Assembly (NCBI RefSeq): GCF_900114765.1 | Contig: NZ_FOUD01000006.1 | Span: forward strand, 124,001 to 188,000 | Length of the DNA: 64,000 nucleotides | Source: Halopseudomonas pachastrellae | Lineage (GTDB): Bacteria > Pseudomonadota > Gammaproteobacteria > Pseudomonadales > Pseudomonadaceae | Direction of reading: 5' to 3' | Shown: positions 1 through 39,429 of the stretch, piece after piece | Layout of the letters: every line of letters starts with the position of its first letter | How positions within the stretch are numbered: the first letter of the stretch is position 1 | The notes under the pieces: generated by a model | What the model saw: only the letters and a program-made list of their open reading frames with translations | Told to the model about the DNA's origin: nothing | Databases searched by the model: none | Program-made: the position numbers and the translations under genes

Positions 1-2310
<2,310 letters not shown>

Positions 2311-32218: not shown

Positions 32219-32905
32219 ATGTCCATGAGCCAGCCCCGTTCCCCTAGTCTGCTGTCGATTAACGCCGCCCAGGCGCAAAACCTGGAGGTGGGGGTGCGCA
32301 CTGCGCGTACCGGTCACTTCAAGCAGCCTCTGGATGGCCCGGTGATGGTTGAGCAGGCTGGTGTGCCCGGCGACTTTATTGGTGACCTGAAGCATCACGG
32401 CGGCCCGGACCAGGCCATCTATCTTTTCAGCCAGGAGGACATCGACTGGTGGAGTGAGCAGCTGCAGCGCCCGTTGGCCGCCGGTTTCTTTGGCGAAAAC
32501 CTGACCCTGTCACACTGGTGGCCTGCCTTGCGCATTGGTGATCGGCTGCGCATTGGCGAACTGTTGCTGGAAATTACCGCACCGCGCATTCCCTGCTCCA
32601 CCTTGGCCGCGCGGGTAGGTGACAGCCGCTTTGCCAAGGCCTTTGTGCGAGCCGAGCGTTGTGGCGCCTACGCCCGCGTGCTGACCTCGGGCGAGGTCAG
32701 GGCGGGAGATGAGGTCACCGTGCTGGCCGGTGACGCGGTCTTTCCGACCATCAACGAGGTGTTCCGCTACTGTCACAGCAAGGGGGCGAACCCGACCTTT
32801 TTGCGCCAGCTGCTGGCCGCGCCCCTGGCCGAGAAGATGCGTGCCGAGATGCAGGCCAAGCTGAGCAAGACCGAGCAGCAGACCTCATCCTTGCCCGGCT
32901 TCTGA
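32219..32905 (+). CDS. MOSC-domain protein (YiiM-like)
   Basis: The 228-residue protein has the MOSC fold of molybdenum-cofactor sulfurase C-terminal domains: GDFIGDLKHHGGPDQAIYLF near residues 45-65, GENLTLS near 92, and the conserved Cys in ITAPRIPCSTLAARVGD near 125. The YiiM group is linked to reduction of N-hydroxylated compounds with a molybdenum cofactor. A second ATG two codons downstream (32225) is equally possible. It converges on the FadB-like gene with a 21-base overlap. Confidence 0.85.
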   Translation: MSMSQPRSPSLLSINAAQAQNLEVGVRTARTGHFKQPLDGPVMVEQAGVPGDFIGDLKHHGGPDQAIYLFSQEDIDWWSEQLQRPLAAGFFGENLTLSHWWPALRIGDRLRIGELLLEITAPRIPCSTLAARVGDSRFAKAFVRAERCGAYARVLTSGEVRAGDEVTVLAGDAVFPTINEVFRYCHSKGANPTFLRQLLAAPLAEKMRAEMQAKLSKTEQQTSSLPGF

Positions 32906-34963
32906 ATCCTCTGCCGGCGTCCAGCCCGGGTCTGGCGCAAAGCGCGGGCCCTGGCTTTGGCTGAGGTCCTGCAGGCGGATAATCAGCGCTGCATGTCCGC
33001 AGCTGCGCGCGTAGCGCAGTGGGCCGCCGCGAAACGCCGGGAAGTGGCCGGACAGAGTCATGGCGGCGTCGAGCATTTCATCGTCGGCCACGATACCCTG
33101 GCGACAGGCACGCACCGCGCTGTTGAGCAAGGCCAGCAGCATGCGGTCGCCTTCCTCGGCGGGCAGGCGTGGCTGCTTGCGCCCTGGTAGCGTCCAGCGC
33201 CCCGCCGGATTCGGGCGGATACGTTCACGACCCTGTTCCACCCAATTGCGCAGCAACGCTGGCGGCTCGATCGGTGGCGTGTCGCGCTCGCTGTGCAGTT
33301 GTTCGAACAGCTGCAGGCTGTCGGCCAGACCCCAGTCATCCAACAGCGCCAACGGGCCCTTATCGAAGCCAAAGTCCAGGGCCGCCTGGTCGATGGCGCT
33401 GGCCTCGTGACCTTCTTCCAGCAGCAGCAGGGCTTCGAGCAGCATGGGCGCCAGCACCCGGCGCAGCAGCAGACCGGGTTGGCTGCTTACCGCAACCGGC
33501 AGGCAGCCCAGCTGGCCGAGTAATTGCCGCGCGTGCTGTTGGCTGATGGTGCGCCCGGTGCTGTGGCTGGCCAGCTCTGCCAGCGCGCCGCGCTGTACCG
33601 GCCCGGCAAAGCGCACGCCGAGCATACGGCCGGCGTCGCCGAGTGCGCTGCGCAGTGGCTCCAGCGCATCGTGCAGACTGAGCAGCAGCGCCTGTGGCCG
33701 CATCTGTGGCTCTAGGCGAGCCAGCTTGGCACGGCGTTCCTCCAGATCGCCGGTCTGGGCGTCGATCAGCGCATCGGCCAGGGCGGCGCCATGGTGCTCC
33801 GGGTCAAAGATGAGGCGATCCAGCGCGGCCTGCAGGTCTTCACTGCCGGCCAGTTGACGGATGCACGGCGTCATCGCCTGCTGATCGCCAATGCTCACCT
33901 TGAGGCCGCGTTGCGCCGCGAGTGCGGCCAGCTCAACCCCTGCCGGACTGTTACCCAGCAGGTGCAGGTGATTGGCGCGCCGGCGCGGGTCCGGCGCGGC
34001 CTCTGCCTTCAGGCGCTGGCGCAGGAAGAACAGGTGAATCAGGTTGCCGGTGGTGCCGCTGGCTAGCAGGCGGGCAAAGGAGTAGATCTCGCGGTGCAGC
34101 ATCAGGTCCGGCTTGCCGCCGTGGCGGCGCCAGAGGTCGATGAGTGCGCTGGGCGCCGGGTAGTGCGCGGGGTCCACCAGCGCGTCGGCGCGGCGCTGCA
34201 AGCCAATGGCGGCCAGGCGTCGTACCCAGTCCAGCCGGTAGGGGCGAGCGCGCAGGTTGCGGCGCTGCAGTGTCAGGCGGCCGTTGACGGCGTCGTCAAT
34301 CAGCTTGGGCAGGGCATGTTCCGCTGCCACGCCGTCCAGCAGTCCGGCCTGTGCCGCCGCATCGGCTTTGAGTGGCTTGCCGCTGAGCATCATGCGCATG
34401 GCCAGCAGCGGGTCGACCAGATCCGGCAGGCGCGCGGTGGCGCCCAGCCCCGGATGCAGACCGACCAGTATCTCCGGCAGGCCCAGCCGGGCATCCGGTG
34501 CGGCCAGGCGCATGTCGCAGCACAGCGCGAGTTCCAGGCCGCCGCCAAGGGTGTCGCCGTGCACGACGGCCAGCGTCGGGCAGGGCAGATCAATCAGTTG
34601 CTGGGCCAGCAGGTGAGCGTCCACCAGCTGGCGCACCGCGTCGGCTTCGTTGTCGACAGCGGCAAAATCGTGCAGGTCGGCGCCCAGGCAAAAGCTGCTT
34701 GCCTTGGCCGAGCGCAGGACCAGCGCGCGCGGCATTTCCCGGCGCAGGCTGGCCAGCACGTCGCCCAGTTCACGCAGCGCAGCGCTGCCGAGCAGGTTGG
34801 CCGATTGCCCTTGCTGATCGAACAGCAGCCAGGCGACCTCGCTGTCGTCGCGACGCAGGCGCCAGTGCTGCCACGGGCCCTCGTTCGGCTGCTCGAGGTC
34901 TTGCTGGCGGAAGGGGCCGTAGCAGCGCTCGCGTTGCATCAGGTCGTTGAGCGCGTCCATCAT
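32885..34963 (-). CDS. FadB/FadJ-like fatty-acid oxidation protein with decayed dehydrogenase site
   Basis: The 692-residue protein has the order of a multifunctional beta-oxidation alpha subunit: enoyl-CoA hydratase (about 30-290) then 3-hydroxyacyl-CoA dehydrogenase (about 325-690). The hydratase keeps both catalytic acids, Glu144 in GGGLELAL and Glu164 in GLPEILVG. In the dehydrogenase half the catalytic His of HFFNP is replaced: GVRFAGPVQR has Arg451 there, the Asn is Gly, and the nucleotide loop reads GNSPAG instead of GxGxxG. NAD-dependent oxidation is therefore doubtful. GAGGAGG lies 7 bases before the ATG, which overlaps the stop of the thiolase-like gene by 4 bases. The true substrate is unknown. 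Confidence 0.8.
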   Translation of the reverse strand: MMDALNDLMQRERCYGPFRQQDLEQPNEGPWQHWRLRRDDSEVAWLLFDQQGQSANLLGSAALRELGDVLASLRREMPRALVLRSAKASSFCLGADLHDFAAVDNEADAVRQLVDAHLLAQQLIDLPCPTLAVVHGDTLGGGLELALCCDMRLAAPDARLGLPEILVGLHPGLGATARLPDLVDPLLAMRMMLSGKPLKADAAAQAGLLDGVAAEHALPKLIDDAVNGRLTLQRRNLRARPYRLDWVRRLAAIGLQRRADALVDPAHYPAPSALIDLWRRHGGKPDLMLHREIYSFARLLASGTTGNLIHLFFLRQRLKAEAAPDPRRRANHLHLLGNSPAGVELAALAAQRGLKVSIGDQQAMTPCIRQLAGSEDLQAALDRLIFDPEHHGAALADALIDAQTGDLEERRAKLARLEPQMRPQALLLSLHDALEPLRSALGDAGRMLGVRFAGPVQRGALAELASHSTGRTISQQHARQLLGQLGCLPVAVSSQPGLLLRRVLAPMLLEALLLLEEGHEASAIDQAALDFGFDKGPLALLDDWGLADSLQLFEQLHSERDTPPIEPPALLRNWVEQGRERIRPNPAGRWTLPGRKQPRLPAEEGDRMLLALLNSAVRACRQGIVADDEMLDAAMTLSGHFPAFRGGPLRYARSCGHAALIIRLQDLSQSQGPRFAPDPGWTPAEDSEAGQG

Positions 34964-36024
34964 GCCTGCACCTCCTCTGCACGGGTCAGCAGCCAGGCCT
35001 GGGCCTGATCGGTATCCTGTTGCTCGCACACCAGCGCCCGGCCCAGTGCATGGCGATGCAAGGTGTCGGCCTGTTGCAGCAGTTGTCGGCAGCCACCACT
35101 GACCGGCAGCGCGCCCAGCGCCAGAGAGCCGCCCAGCGGGTTGAGGCTGGTCGGGTCCAGACGGCCCATGGGCTGCTCCAGCTCCAGCTGGCGCTCGCAA
35201 AAGCGCGCGTCCTGCCAGGCGGCCAGATTGGCGAGCAGCGCCAGTGCGGGCGCGTCGGGTAACTCCCACAGATCAATGTCGTTCAGGCCTAGCCGCTCTT
35301 TCTGCAGCAGGCGGGTGCTGGCCAGCAGCGGCGCCAGGCTGGGGTAGTCTGCCGGCGCGCGGGCCAGGGCCTGGCTGCTGAGCTGGGCCAGCGGGCGTTG
35401 CTTGAGTTGTGCGCAGCCTTTGGCAGAGGCCAGCAGCAAGGCGCAGGCACCGCTGTCGGGAGTGGTCTGATCGCTGTTGTAGGCTTCGCCCTGGCGATCA
35501 AACAGGGCAATGCGGTAGGGGCTGAACAGGCCGCTTTGCTCGGCTTCGCTATGGCGCTGGCCGCAGGCCTGATCGTAGGCTTCGGCGTCTTCCTCTGCCA
35601 CCTCGAACAGGGCTGCCAGGCGCTTGGCTGATTCGCTGATGGCGCTCGAGCCATGCGCAGCTGCTGCGTCGCTGGCAATGACCAGCAGCAGATCGGCGTC
35701 GCCGCTGCGGATCTGCTGGCTGGCGCGGGCGACGGCATCGAGCCCCTGGGTGCATTGCTGCAGTGGCGTAACCGGGCTCAATTGCAGCCGCTGACGCACT
35801 TTATCTGCTGCCTGGCTGGCGTCAGTGGCCAGTACCACGCCGTCCAGTGCGCTGGCGGCCAGGCCGCAGCGCAGTAACAGGGCGTTGGCACTTTGCACCG
35901 CCAGATCCAGTGCGCTGAAGCCGGCGCGGGCTCGGCTGGCGCTGTTCAAGCCAGGCGTACGGGTACCTTCAAGCAGGTAGGCGCCGGGCGGCAGGGTGAC
36001 GCAAGGGCTGTTCTGGCTGTCCAT
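34960..36024 (-). CDS. Thiolase-like protein lacking catalytic His and Asn motifs
   Basis: The 354-residue protein is shorter than the usual 390-430 and follows the thiolase fold: LEGTRTPG near the start and the nucleophile region LQQCTQGLDAVARASQQI with Cys91. The NEAF motif is replaced by LPDAPA near residue 256, and the GHPxGxSG motif reads GALPVSGG near 304, so the catalytic His is lost. A late Cys (333) is present without the GGG loop. Either the enzyme is inactive, as in some partner subunits, or it has a new job. The ATG at 36024 is chosen; a GTG at 36051 is possible. It is translationally coupled to the FadB-like gene. Confidence 0.75.
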   Translation of the reverse strand: MDSQNSPCVTLPPGAYLLEGTRTPGLNSASRARAGFSALDLAVQSANALLLRCGLAASALDGVVLATDASQAADKVRQRLQLSPVTPLQQCTQGLDAVARASQQIRSGDADLLLVIASDAAAAHGSSAISESAKRLAALFEVAEEDAEAYDQACGQRHSEAEQSGLFSPYRIALFDRQGEAYNSDQTTPDSGACALLLASAKGCAQLKQRPLAQLSSQALARAPADYPSLAPLLASTRLLQKERLGLNDIDLWELPDAPALALLANLAAWQDARFCERQLELEQPMGRLDPTSLNPLGGSLALGALPVSGGCRQLLQQADTLHRHALGRALVCEQQDTDQAQAWLLTRAEEVQA

Positions 36025-36133
36025 GCAGGGCTCGCAAGATTGAAGTGGCACAGGTAAGCACCTGCGACAGGTGCTGCGCAGGCTATGACCGGTTTGCGGG
36101 CGGTCAGTTCAACAGTGTAGGAGGCAGTGCAGG

Positions 36134-36178
36134 CGCTTGCGAGCAAGCAATGCAATGGCGCCGGGCGGCGCCATTGCA
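36134..36178. repeat. Two adjacent hairpins downstream of the acetyltransferase gene
   Basis: GCTTGC-GA-GCAAGC (36134-36147) is followed by a 12-bp perfect stem, TGCAATGGCGCC (36151-36162) with GGCGCCATTGCA (36167-36178) and a GGGC loop. No T run follows on the minus strand. It may end the acetyltransferase transcript by another mechanism or protect its 3' end. Confidence 0.6.
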
Positions 36179-36189
36179 GGCGGGGGAGA

Positions 36190-37371
36190 TCAGTCGCGGG
36201 CCAGTGCCAGGGCGACACCCTGGCCGCCACCAATGCACAGGGTGGCCAGGCCTTTCTTGGCGTCACGGCGCAGCATCTCGTGCAGCAGGGTGACCAGCAC
36301 GCGGCAGCCGGAAGCGCCAATCGGGTGGCCCAGCGCGATGGCGCCGCCGTTGACGTTGACCTTCTCGGCATCCCATTTGAGCTCCTTGCCGACGGCCAGC
36401 GCTTGTGCGGCAAAGGCTTCGTTGGCCTCGATCAGGTCCAGGTCAGCGACCTGCCAGCCGGCCTTGCTCAGGCAGCGTTGGGTGGCGGAGACCGGGCCAA
36501 TACCCATGATCGCCGGATCAACCCCGGCATTAGCGTAGGAGGCGACGCGGGCCAGCACCGGCAGACCCAGTTCGGCGGCCTTGCTGGCGCTCATCATCAG
36601 CACCGCGGCGGCGCCGTCATTGAGGCTGGAGGCGTTGCCGGCGGTGACGCTGCCGTCTTTCTTGAAGGCCGGCTTGAGGCCGCCCAGGCTCTCGGCGGTG
36701 GTGCCTGCGCGCGGCTGTTCATCCTGGGTGATCAGCACGGCGTCGCCCTTGCGCTGGGGAATGCTCACCGGGGTGATTTCCTGATCAAAGACGCCTGCCT
36801 CACGGGCAGCAACCGCTTTCTGCTGGGAAGCCGCCGCGAAGGCGTCCTGCTCCTCGCGAGTGATGCCGTACTTGTCGACCAGGTTCTCGGCGGTGATGCC
36901 CATGTGGTAGTTGTTGAAGGCGTCCCACAGGCCGTCCTGAATCATGGTGTCGATCATCTGACCGTGGCCCATGCGCTGGCCGGTGCGGGAGGTGGGGATG
37001 ATGTGGGGCGACAGGCTCATGGATTCCTGACCGCCGGCGATCATGATCTCGGCATCGCCGCAGCGAATAGCCTGGGCAGCCAGATGCAGGGCTTTGAGGC
37101 CGGAGCCACAGACCTTGTTCAGGGTCAGTGCGGGGACGCTGTGCGGCAGGCCGGCGTGGATGGCAGCCTGACGGGCGGGGTTCTGGCCACAGCCGGCGGT
37201 GAGTACCTGGCCGAAGATAACCTCGTCGACCGACGCCGGGTCAATTTCGGTTTCGTCCAGCAAGCGGCGGATAACGGTCGCGCCCAATTCGTGGGCGGGC
37301 ACTTTGGCAAACTGGCCCCCGAAACTGCCGATGGCGGTACGGGTGGCGGCTACAATCACGACCTCTTGCAT
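36190..37371 (-). CDS. Acetyl-CoA C-acetyltransferase (thiolase)
   Basis: The 393-residue protein is a complete biosynthetic-type thiolase that condenses or cleaves acetoacetyl-CoA. The nucleophile is in [19 protein letters not shown] (Cys near 88), the [14 protein letters not shown] motif is intact, [18 protein letters not shown] holds the catalytic His near 349, and [12 protein letters not shown] holds the second Cys near 379. It contrasts with the decayed thiolase just downstream, with which it may share transcription (138-base gap with hairpins). atoB or phbA would be fitting names; I leave the symbol open. Confidence 0.93.
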
Positions 37372-37451
37372 GAACAGACTCCTCTACACAGGCACTATTT
37401 TTCGAGTGCACAAGCATAGAGGGGTGGTCTGGTCAGAACAAGCTGTCTCGA

Positions 37452-37481
37452 CACTGGTACAGCCGGGCGGCTGCACCAGTG
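37452..37481. terminator. Hairpin between acs and the acetyltransferase gene
   Basis: CACTGGTACAGCC (37452-37464) pairs with GGCTGCACCAGTG (37469-37481) with one mismatch and a GGGC loop. It lies just after the acs stop on the minus strand. A T run is lacking, so termination is plausible but not certain. Confidence 0.55.
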
Positions 37482-37488
37482 CCTGTTC

Positions 37489-39429
37489 TCAGGCGTGGGC
37501 GATGCGGTTGCTGATCAAATCCTGCACAACAGTCGGGTCGGCCAGGGTTGAGGTATCGCCCAGGCTATCGAGTTCGTTGCAGGCGATCTTGCGCAGGATG
37601 CGGCGCATGATTTTGCCCGAGCGGGTTTTCGGCAGGCTCGGAGCCCATTGCATGAACTCGGGGCGGGCAAAGGCGCCCACCTGGTCGGCGACAAAGGTTT
37701 TCAGTTCCTTGACCAGCTCCTCGCTCGGCTCGACACCGTTCATCGGCGTGACGTACACATAGATGCACTGGCCCTTGATGTCGTGCGGGCAGCCAACCAC
37801 GGCTGCCTCGGCAACGGCGTCGTGCAGTACCAGAGCGCTTTCTACTTCGGCGGTGCCGATACGGTGCCCGGAGACGTTGAGAACGTCGTCCACGCGACCG
37901 GTGATCCAGTAGAAGCCGTCTTCGTCACGGCGCGCACCGTCGCCGGTGAAGTAAACATCCTTGTAGGTGCTGAAGTAGGTGTCGACCAAGCGCTGGTGAT
38001 CGCCATAGACCGTACGGATCTGGCTGGGCCAGGAACGTTTGATGACCAGGTTGCCGCTGGTCGCGCCTTCCAGTTCGTTGCCTTCCGGATCGTACAGCGC
38101 TGGCTCCACACCAAAGAACGGACGGGTTGCCGAGCCGGGTTTCAGAGTGGTGCTGCCCGGCAGCGGGGTGATCATGGCGGCGCCGGTTTCGGTTTGCCAC
38201 CAGGTGTCGACAATCGGGCAGCGCTGTTCGCCGACCACGTGGTAGTACCACTCCCAGGCTTCCGGGTTGATCGGCTCGCCAACCGTGCCGAGCAGGCGCA
38301 GGCTGGCGCGTGAGGAGGACTTCACCGGCTCGTCACCCTTGGCCATCAGTGCGCGCAGGGCGGTGGGCGCGGTGTAGAAGATGTTGACCTGATGCTTGTC
38401 GATAACCTGCCAGCAACGCGAGGCGTCCGGGTAGGTCGGCACGCCCTCGAACAGCAGGGTGGTGGCGCGGTTACACAGCGGGCCGTAGACAATGTAGGAG
38501 TGGCCGGTGATCCAGCCCACATCAGCTGTACACCAGTAGACTTCGCCCGGCACGTAGTCGAAGACGTAGTAATGCGTCATGGCCGCCATCAGGAGGTAGC
38601 CGCCGGTGGTGTGCAGCACACCCTTGGGTTTGCCGGTGGAGCCTGAGGTGTAGAGGATGAACAGCGGGTCTTCGCTGTCCATCGGTTCGGGCGGGCAGTC
38701 GGCACTGACGTTGGCGGTGGCTTCGTCGTACCAGACGTCACGGCCTTCGGTCCAGGCAACGTCGGCGCCAGTGCGTTTGACGGTAATAACGGTGTGGACG
38801 TTGGGGCATTCTTGCAGGGCTTTCTCGACGTTGACCTTCAGCGGTACGCGCTTGCCGCCGCGCACGCTTTCGTCTGCGGTTATTACGGCCTGGCAGTCGG
38901 CATCCAGAATGCGATCGCGTACGGCGTCGGGCGAGAAGCCGCCAAACACCACAGAGTGCACCGCGCCGATGCGCGCGCAGGCCAGCATGGCGTAGGCCGC
39001 TTCGGGGATCATGGGCATGTACAGGCAAACCCGGTCGCCTTTCTTGACGCCGCGAGCCTTGAGCACGTTGGCCAGGCGGCAGACCTTGTCGTGCAGCTGC
39101 TTGTAGCTGATGCGCTGGGCGTCGCTCGGGTCGTCGCCTTCCCAGATGATGGCGATATCGTCGCCGTGCTCGGCCAGGTGGCGGTCGATACAGTTGACGC
39201 TGACGTTGAGTTTGCCGTCGATGAACCAGGCAGCCTGGCCTTTGCTCAGATCACTTTCGTGAACCTTGCTCCAGCGCTTGTCCCAGGTCAGGAAGCGTTC
39301 GGCCTGCTCGGCCCAGAACTGATCGGGCTGTTCAAGTGACTGCTTGTACATGCGCTGGTAGCCGGCGTCGTCCAGGTGCGTATGCGCACGGGCGGCGTCC
39401 GATACCTTGTGGTTTTCAATCTTGTACAT
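37489..39429 (-). CDS. acs: Acetyl-CoA synthetase
   Basis: Acs activates acetate to acetyl-CoA through acetyl-AMP. The 646-residue protein has the normal length, the AMP-binding motif [20 protein letters not shown] near residue 263, [16 protein letters not shown] near 412, [21 protein letters not shown] near 500, and the C-terminal acetylatable lysine motif [15 protein letters not shown] near 605. The leader holds an AAYAAYAA motif beside the ribosome binding site AGAGGGG, which marks Crc/Hfq control. In P. aeruginosa acsB is separated from panC by pgi and panD; here they are adjacent. Confidence 0.96.

Follow-up and report, generated by a model that had tools for sequence, protein, structure and literature searches.

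A 64,000-nucleotide stretch of the Halopseudomonas pachastrellae genome (GCF_900114765.1, contig NZ_FOUD01000006.1, positions 124,001 to 188,000; hereafter the window) encodes an overlapping gene pair resembling the trifunctional complexes of beta-oxidation. The first gene encodes a thiolase-like protein of 354 amino acids (aa; 34960..36024), a putative pseudo-thiolase or beta subunit, and the second a FadJ/FadB-like alpha subunit of 692 aa (32885..34963). Both lie on the minus strand, as do all features below unless stated otherwise. In a small marine group of Halopseudomonas, two of the three active sites of the pair are gone, yet both genes are maintained intact by selection. We consider it probable (roughly 60%) that a FadI/FadJ-type complex has been cut down to an enoyl-CoA hydratase carried on a pseudo-dehydrogenase and pseudo-thiolase scaffold. 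This reading is best supported by how differently the domains behave, both in the positions that they retain and in the length of the stem branch.

Alignments of 14 alpha subunits and of 13 thiolases plus one fragment (19 and 18 sequences with outgroups) separate six degenerate pairs, including that of the window, from intact ones. We scored positions invariant in the intact relatives as kept if all six degenerate members retain them. The predicted active enoyl-CoA hydratase domain (alpha residues 30-230; 34274..34876) keeps 43 of 49 such positions and the linker 9 of 13. The NAD-binding dehydrogenase domain (residues 326-495; 33479..33988), a predicted pseudo-domain, keeps 24 of 55 and the dehydrogenase C-terminal domain (residues 496-585; 33209..33478) 18 of 34, together 42 of 89. 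The C-terminal part of alpha retains 8 of 20 and the thiolase 53 of 163. Branch lengths were estimated on a fixed topology with G006, G012 and G013 as outgroup. Among the stems leading to the six, that of the thiolase is the longest (1.64), followed by those of the two dehydrogenase domains (1.28 and 1.35), the C-terminal part (0.98), the hydratase (0.45) and the linker (0.32), so that the dehydrogenase and thiolase stems are 2.8-3.6 times that of the hydratase. The corresponding stem is 0.06-0.22 for four neighbouring genes, and the intact sister stem is 0.00-0.21 over the parts of the pair. Faster evolution continues inside the clade after the stem, with summed crown lengths of 0.50 for the hydratase, 0.94 and 0.83 for the dehydrogenase domains, 1.38 for the thiolase and 0.11-0.80 for the neighbours.

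The six degenerate members are set apart at 100% ultrafast bootstrap in the alpha and thiolase trees, which include outgroups, and in the tree of neighbouring genes. A phylogeny had been proposed in the first-pass annotation as a check for shared loss; the loss is indeed common to all six, which makes chance or sequencing error implausible. That the pair was acquired horizontally in a degenerate state is not favoured, since all three trees separate the same six with full support. This verdict is tempered by the neighbouring-gene tree, which covers 12 genomes and has no outgroup, and by two pair-less genomes (G015 and G022) whose atoB is 91 and 90% identical to that of the window, as against 90% for the intact G017; the pair may have been gained or lost within the genus.

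The catalytic roles of the residues compared here are general knowledge. In the dehydrogenase part, R451 (33611..33613) occupies the position of the HFFNP catalytic His. It lies opposite this His, gap-free, in the alphas of all eight intact genus relatives, as well as opposite the His of HFFNP/HFFSP in E. coli FadB (6tnm) and FadJ (6ysv). Intact genus relatives have a nucleotide-binding loop that reads GAGAMG or GAGEMG. The window has GNSPAG there, and the other five degenerate members have GASQVG, GDSQVG (twice), GDSGDG and GDSEDG, so that in all six Ser stands for the second Gly of GxGxxG (GxSxxG). The substitutions H451R and N501R and the loss of NTSS and E405 are likewise common to the six. 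E463 is kept in all of them. It aligns with what we take to be the acidic partner of the dehydrogenase catalytic His. Titles of PDB entries for Mycobacterium tuberculosis complex mutants (alpha-E141A, alpha-H462A and beta-C92A) are consistent with the roles assigned to Glu, His and Cys.

The thiolase-like protein retains a single catalytic residue, Cys91 (35752..35754), which is present in all six members. NEAF is replaced by LPDA in the window (35248..35259) and by LPDA, LPDT or LPES across the clade, GHP by GAL (35107..35115) or GTL, and CIGGGQ, which holds the Cys of the C-x-G motif, is gone. Two further segments are missing, one of some 50 residues in the loop region and one of about 30 that surrounds TAGNSS. 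Counted from the shared ATG, the six degenerate thiolases are 353-354 aa long, compared with frames of 436-448 aa in intact genus members. The Arg for His, the GNSPAG loop and the retention of Cys91 without NEAF or GHP had all been read from the single sequence in the first-pass annotation and are borne out by these alignments, which add the loss of N501, NTSS and CIGGGQ and the retention of E463. That another His serves either site was ruled out, since the stretches around R451, LPDA and GAL align gap-free. It is therefore very unlikely that the dehydrogenase, the thiolase or both still work through unusual residues: Cys91 and E463 remain, but the dehydrogenase His, Asn and Ser and the thiolase Asn, His and second Cys motif are all lost, and no substitute His lies in the aligned stretches. 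Both activities are predicted to be absent.

The hydratase part presents the opposite picture. Both catalytic Glu residues noted at the outset, E144 (34532..34534) and E164 (34472..34474), are present in all six degenerate alphas, and the GGG loop is also invariant. The ratio of nonsynonymous to synonymous substitution rates (dN/dS), computed in 30-codon windows with three pairs pooled, is 0.00, 0.03 and 0.03 over alpha residues 91-180. This segment encloses both Glu residues, and nowhere else in the pair does dN/dS stay so low over such a length. Such a pattern bears on the two functions originally suggested for the pair, a hydratase/isomerase module with a structural thiolase partner or a CoA-ester binding complex. 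The former best fits the domain contrast. CoA-ester binding without catalysis fits less well because the longest stretch of very low dN/dS covers the hydratase active site, although isolated windows elsewhere in alpha reach equally low values. That the whole pair is non-catalytic and serves as a CoA-ester sensor or buffer would agree with two lost sites and retained predicted folds, but this is unlikely given the constraint on the catalytic stretch and the invariance of both Glu residues and the GGG loop.

Selection was measured as NG86 dN/dS over four pairs within the degenerate clade, which are not fully independent, and over four intact pairs, some with dS > 1. The degenerate alphas give 0.070, 0.057, 0.075 and 0.131 and the degenerate thiolases 0.156, 0.212, 0.193 and 0.160. 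Intact pairs give 0.037-0.061 for alpha and 0.032-0.071 for the thiolase. For the neighbours in the same clade pairs, values are 0.024-0.039 (atoB), 0.014-0.044 (acs) and 0.050-0.124 (MOSC). Both degenerate genes are thus under selection that is looser than on most intact ones. Catalytic residues are lost and the frame and purifying selection are retained, as in a pseudoenzyme. This agrees with the initial preference for selected change over decay: six species share the state, all six keep open frames, and with dN/dS far below 1 for both genes simple decay is rejected. Slow decay of pseudogenes would be in keeping with dN/dS above that of most intact pairs and with faster evolution continuing inside the clade, but it is extremely unlikely in view of the open frames, dN/dS of 0.06-0.21, the shared state and a conserved 4-nucleotide gene overlap.

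Both genes had been predicted as intact, overlapping frames, and both are open. The overlap, ATGA at 34960..34963, places the alpha start inside the thiolase stop. It occurs in all six degenerate pairs, whereas at the four intact junctions printed (G010, G018, G017 and G012) thiolase and alpha are separated by a short spacer. The strong ribosome binding site reported for the pair stands before alpha (GAGGAGGT), but none was obvious by eye ahead of the thiolase ATG. A GTG at 36051 upstream is a possible alternative thiolase start, but some intact relatives also begin with MDSQ. In Pfam, alpha matches ECH_1 (2e-30), 3HCDH (3e-14) and, weakly, 3HCDH_N (3.5e-5), and the thiolase-like protein matches Thiolase_C (1e-9), with Thiolase_N below threshold. 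Alpha misses the NCBIfam cut-offs for FadJ (NF008363, 245 bits versus 869) and FadB (NF008727, 226 versus 870), and the best model for its partner, PRK08170 thiolase, scores 138 bits against a cut-off of 593. The predicted folds appear to stay thiolase-like and trifunctional-alpha-like, with 6ysv_A as the best PDB match of the alpha model (template modelling score 0.80 by query length).

We suggest that the ancestor of a single Halopseudomonas clade lost the dehydrogenase and thiolase chemistry and retained the hydratase. Alpha would hydrate or isomerise 2-enoyl-CoA via E144 and E164. The pseudo-dehydrogenase domains and the pseudo-thiolase may form a folded scaffold that positions the hydratase in an assembled complex, and translational coupling could ensure that both chains are made in step. 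The hydrated product would be handed to other beta-oxidation enzymes of the cell for oxidation and cleavage. The window's genome encodes two further FadB-like proteins with HFFNP or HFFSP.

Several observations weigh against a hydratase on a pseudoenzyme scaffold. The hydratase domain (dN/dS 0.067, 0.048, 0.054 and 0.106) taken as a unit, does not stand out as the most constrained segment of alpha; the linker, the C-terminal part and the second dehydrogenase domain have similar values. Single alpha windows at 271-300, 481-510 and 631-660 are as low as the catalytic stretch (0.02 each), and the hydratase window 181-210 reaches 0.20. The NAD-binding domain has the top dN/dS in all four pairs (0.096, 0.079, 0.085 and 0.156). 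Clade dN/dS backs selection on the whole pair and alone does not single out the hydratase. The hydratase stem of 0.45 also exceeds those of the four neighbouring genes, and a shift in the substrate of the hydratase is therefore possible. Moreover, constraint on the pseudo-dehydrogenase and pseudo-thiolase is tighter than simple spacers would require, with the lowest thiolase windows at 0.07 (241-270) and 0.09 (271-300). Fold models drew on alignments with intact relatives, which may have pulled them towards the classical fold. Finally, the retention of Cys91 and E463 in all six hints at something beyond scaffolding; a pure scaffold does not explain it, which leaves room for a new function.

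Such a function might be new chemistry on the hydrated acyl-CoA, either in the thiolase pocket with Cys91 or at the dehydrogenase site with R451 and E463. Besides these retained residues, the clear purifying selection on the pseudo-domains and a stem burst compatible with changed function speak for it. We regard it as a doubtful though real possibility, since no new motif could be recognised, constraint within the pair is weakest in the thiolase, and several elements round its old pocket have been deleted. More broadly, and just as tentatively, the pair could be a re-purposed multienzyme whose old pockets, remodelled mostly in one burst and selected since, carry either a new step involving Cys91 and E463 or, coupled to the hydratase, a regulatory CoA-ester function.

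The Halopseudomonas pair shares domain order, gene pairing, the hydratase active site and, apparently, predicted folds with the FadJ/FadI and FadB/FadA complexes (6ysv, 8bnr, 6tnm and 1wdk), but it lacks their dehydrogenase and thiolase catalytic residues, and its thiolase-like protein is shorter than FadI (354 versus 436 aa; 8bnu). A homologous pair, consisting of a PRK08170-like full-length thiolase and a FadJ-like alpha, occurs in other Halopseudomonas, Marinobacter, Azoarcus and Thauera; unlike the degenerate pair, it retains HFFNP, GAGxMG, NEAF, GHP and GGGQ. Within the genus, degenerate and intact pairs are probably orthologous. To judge from a title cited in PMC10818641, the heterotetrameric dehydrogenase BbsCD also has pseudoenzyme subunits in a beta-oxidation-type enzyme. 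BbsCD, however, is a short-chain dehydrogenase catalysing a single reaction, whereas the Halopseudomonas pair has lost two of three reactions of a multienzyme. The pair was not described in the accessible parts of the literature searched on trifunctional enzymes, thiolase pseudoenzymes and Halopseudomonas (including PMC10818641 and PMC9329746, and few subscription journals).

All 37 genus genomes have some thiolase match to the thiolase-like query (P0002) at E<=0.001. The short degenerate form occurs in six of them, at 100% (window), 88, 84, 81, 54 and 54% identity, and a longer relative with intact motifs in eight, at 38-41% over the matched part; in one of the latter (G030) contig ends truncate the thiolase. 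A search with P0001 at E<=1e-60 returned 14 of 398 family genomes, all in the genus and comprising the same six and eight. A genome_contigs scan with two short patterns yielded ten loci. Four are degenerate, from Halopseudomonas or a Pseudomonadaceae metagenome-assembled genome (MAG), namely Pseudomonas abyssi MT5, MAG UBA836, Halopseudomonas oceani DSM 100277 and H. aestusnigri VGXO14. Five are intact (two Marinobacter, an Oleiphilaceae MAG, Azoarcus and a Thauera MAG), and one weak Nocardia match was excluded from comparisons. The scan was not exhaustive, as it missed the degenerate pair of G008. At E<=1e-20, P0002 matched 33 of 369 class genomes, one being the window's own; the matches listed for the other 32 fall in open frames of at least 430 aa except one of 210 aa, their active sites left uninspected. 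Limited searches of the 398 family genomes, the 369 class genomes and the one pattern scan revealed no degenerate relatives outside the genus, and tblastn found no match to the thiolase-like protein in a plasmid collection.

In the six degenerate genomes the locus runs acs, atoB, thiolase, alpha and then a convergent MOSC gene overlapping the alpha end; in the window, the 3' ends of alpha (minus strand) and the MOSC gene (plus strand) share 21 bases (32885-32905). The same four genes are adjacent in the intact G010, G017 and G018, with MOSC about 1.9-2.5 kb beyond, and in G012, G006 and G013 the pair lies just past MOSC. The intact pair thus occupies nearly the same locus as the degenerate one in six of eight genomes, while that of G019 is elsewhere and that of G030 at a contig end. 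The atoB-MOSC gap is 0.4-1.5 kb, with no room for the pair, in the pair-less G009, G015, G022, G026, G027, G031, G032, G034 and G035 and in G019. The neighbouring atoB encodes an intact acetyl-CoA acetyltransferase (PRK05656-type; 36190..37371). Its stop codon is closely followed by a 12-bp perfect hairpin without a T run (36151-36178, minus strand), and a 71-nucleotide stretch containing it has a folding z of -3.6 against shuffles. This hairpin may separate transcription of atoB from that of the pair. A simple scan of 32700-37600 found no sigma-70-like promoter. In MAG UBA836 (G023), panB appears as two overlapping frames (L040:13590-14707), probably through a frameshift or assembly error.

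Annotation by similarity alone would probably label both proteins as fatty-acid oxidation enzymes and credit the species with an extra complete cycle. The accepted view of trifunctional beta-oxidation complexes is one of three reactions coupled together. Here a clade has lost two of the three sites and apparently kept the architecture, while close relatives have the intact form, and the comparison amounts to a natural experiment on the scaffold's contribution to the hydratase.

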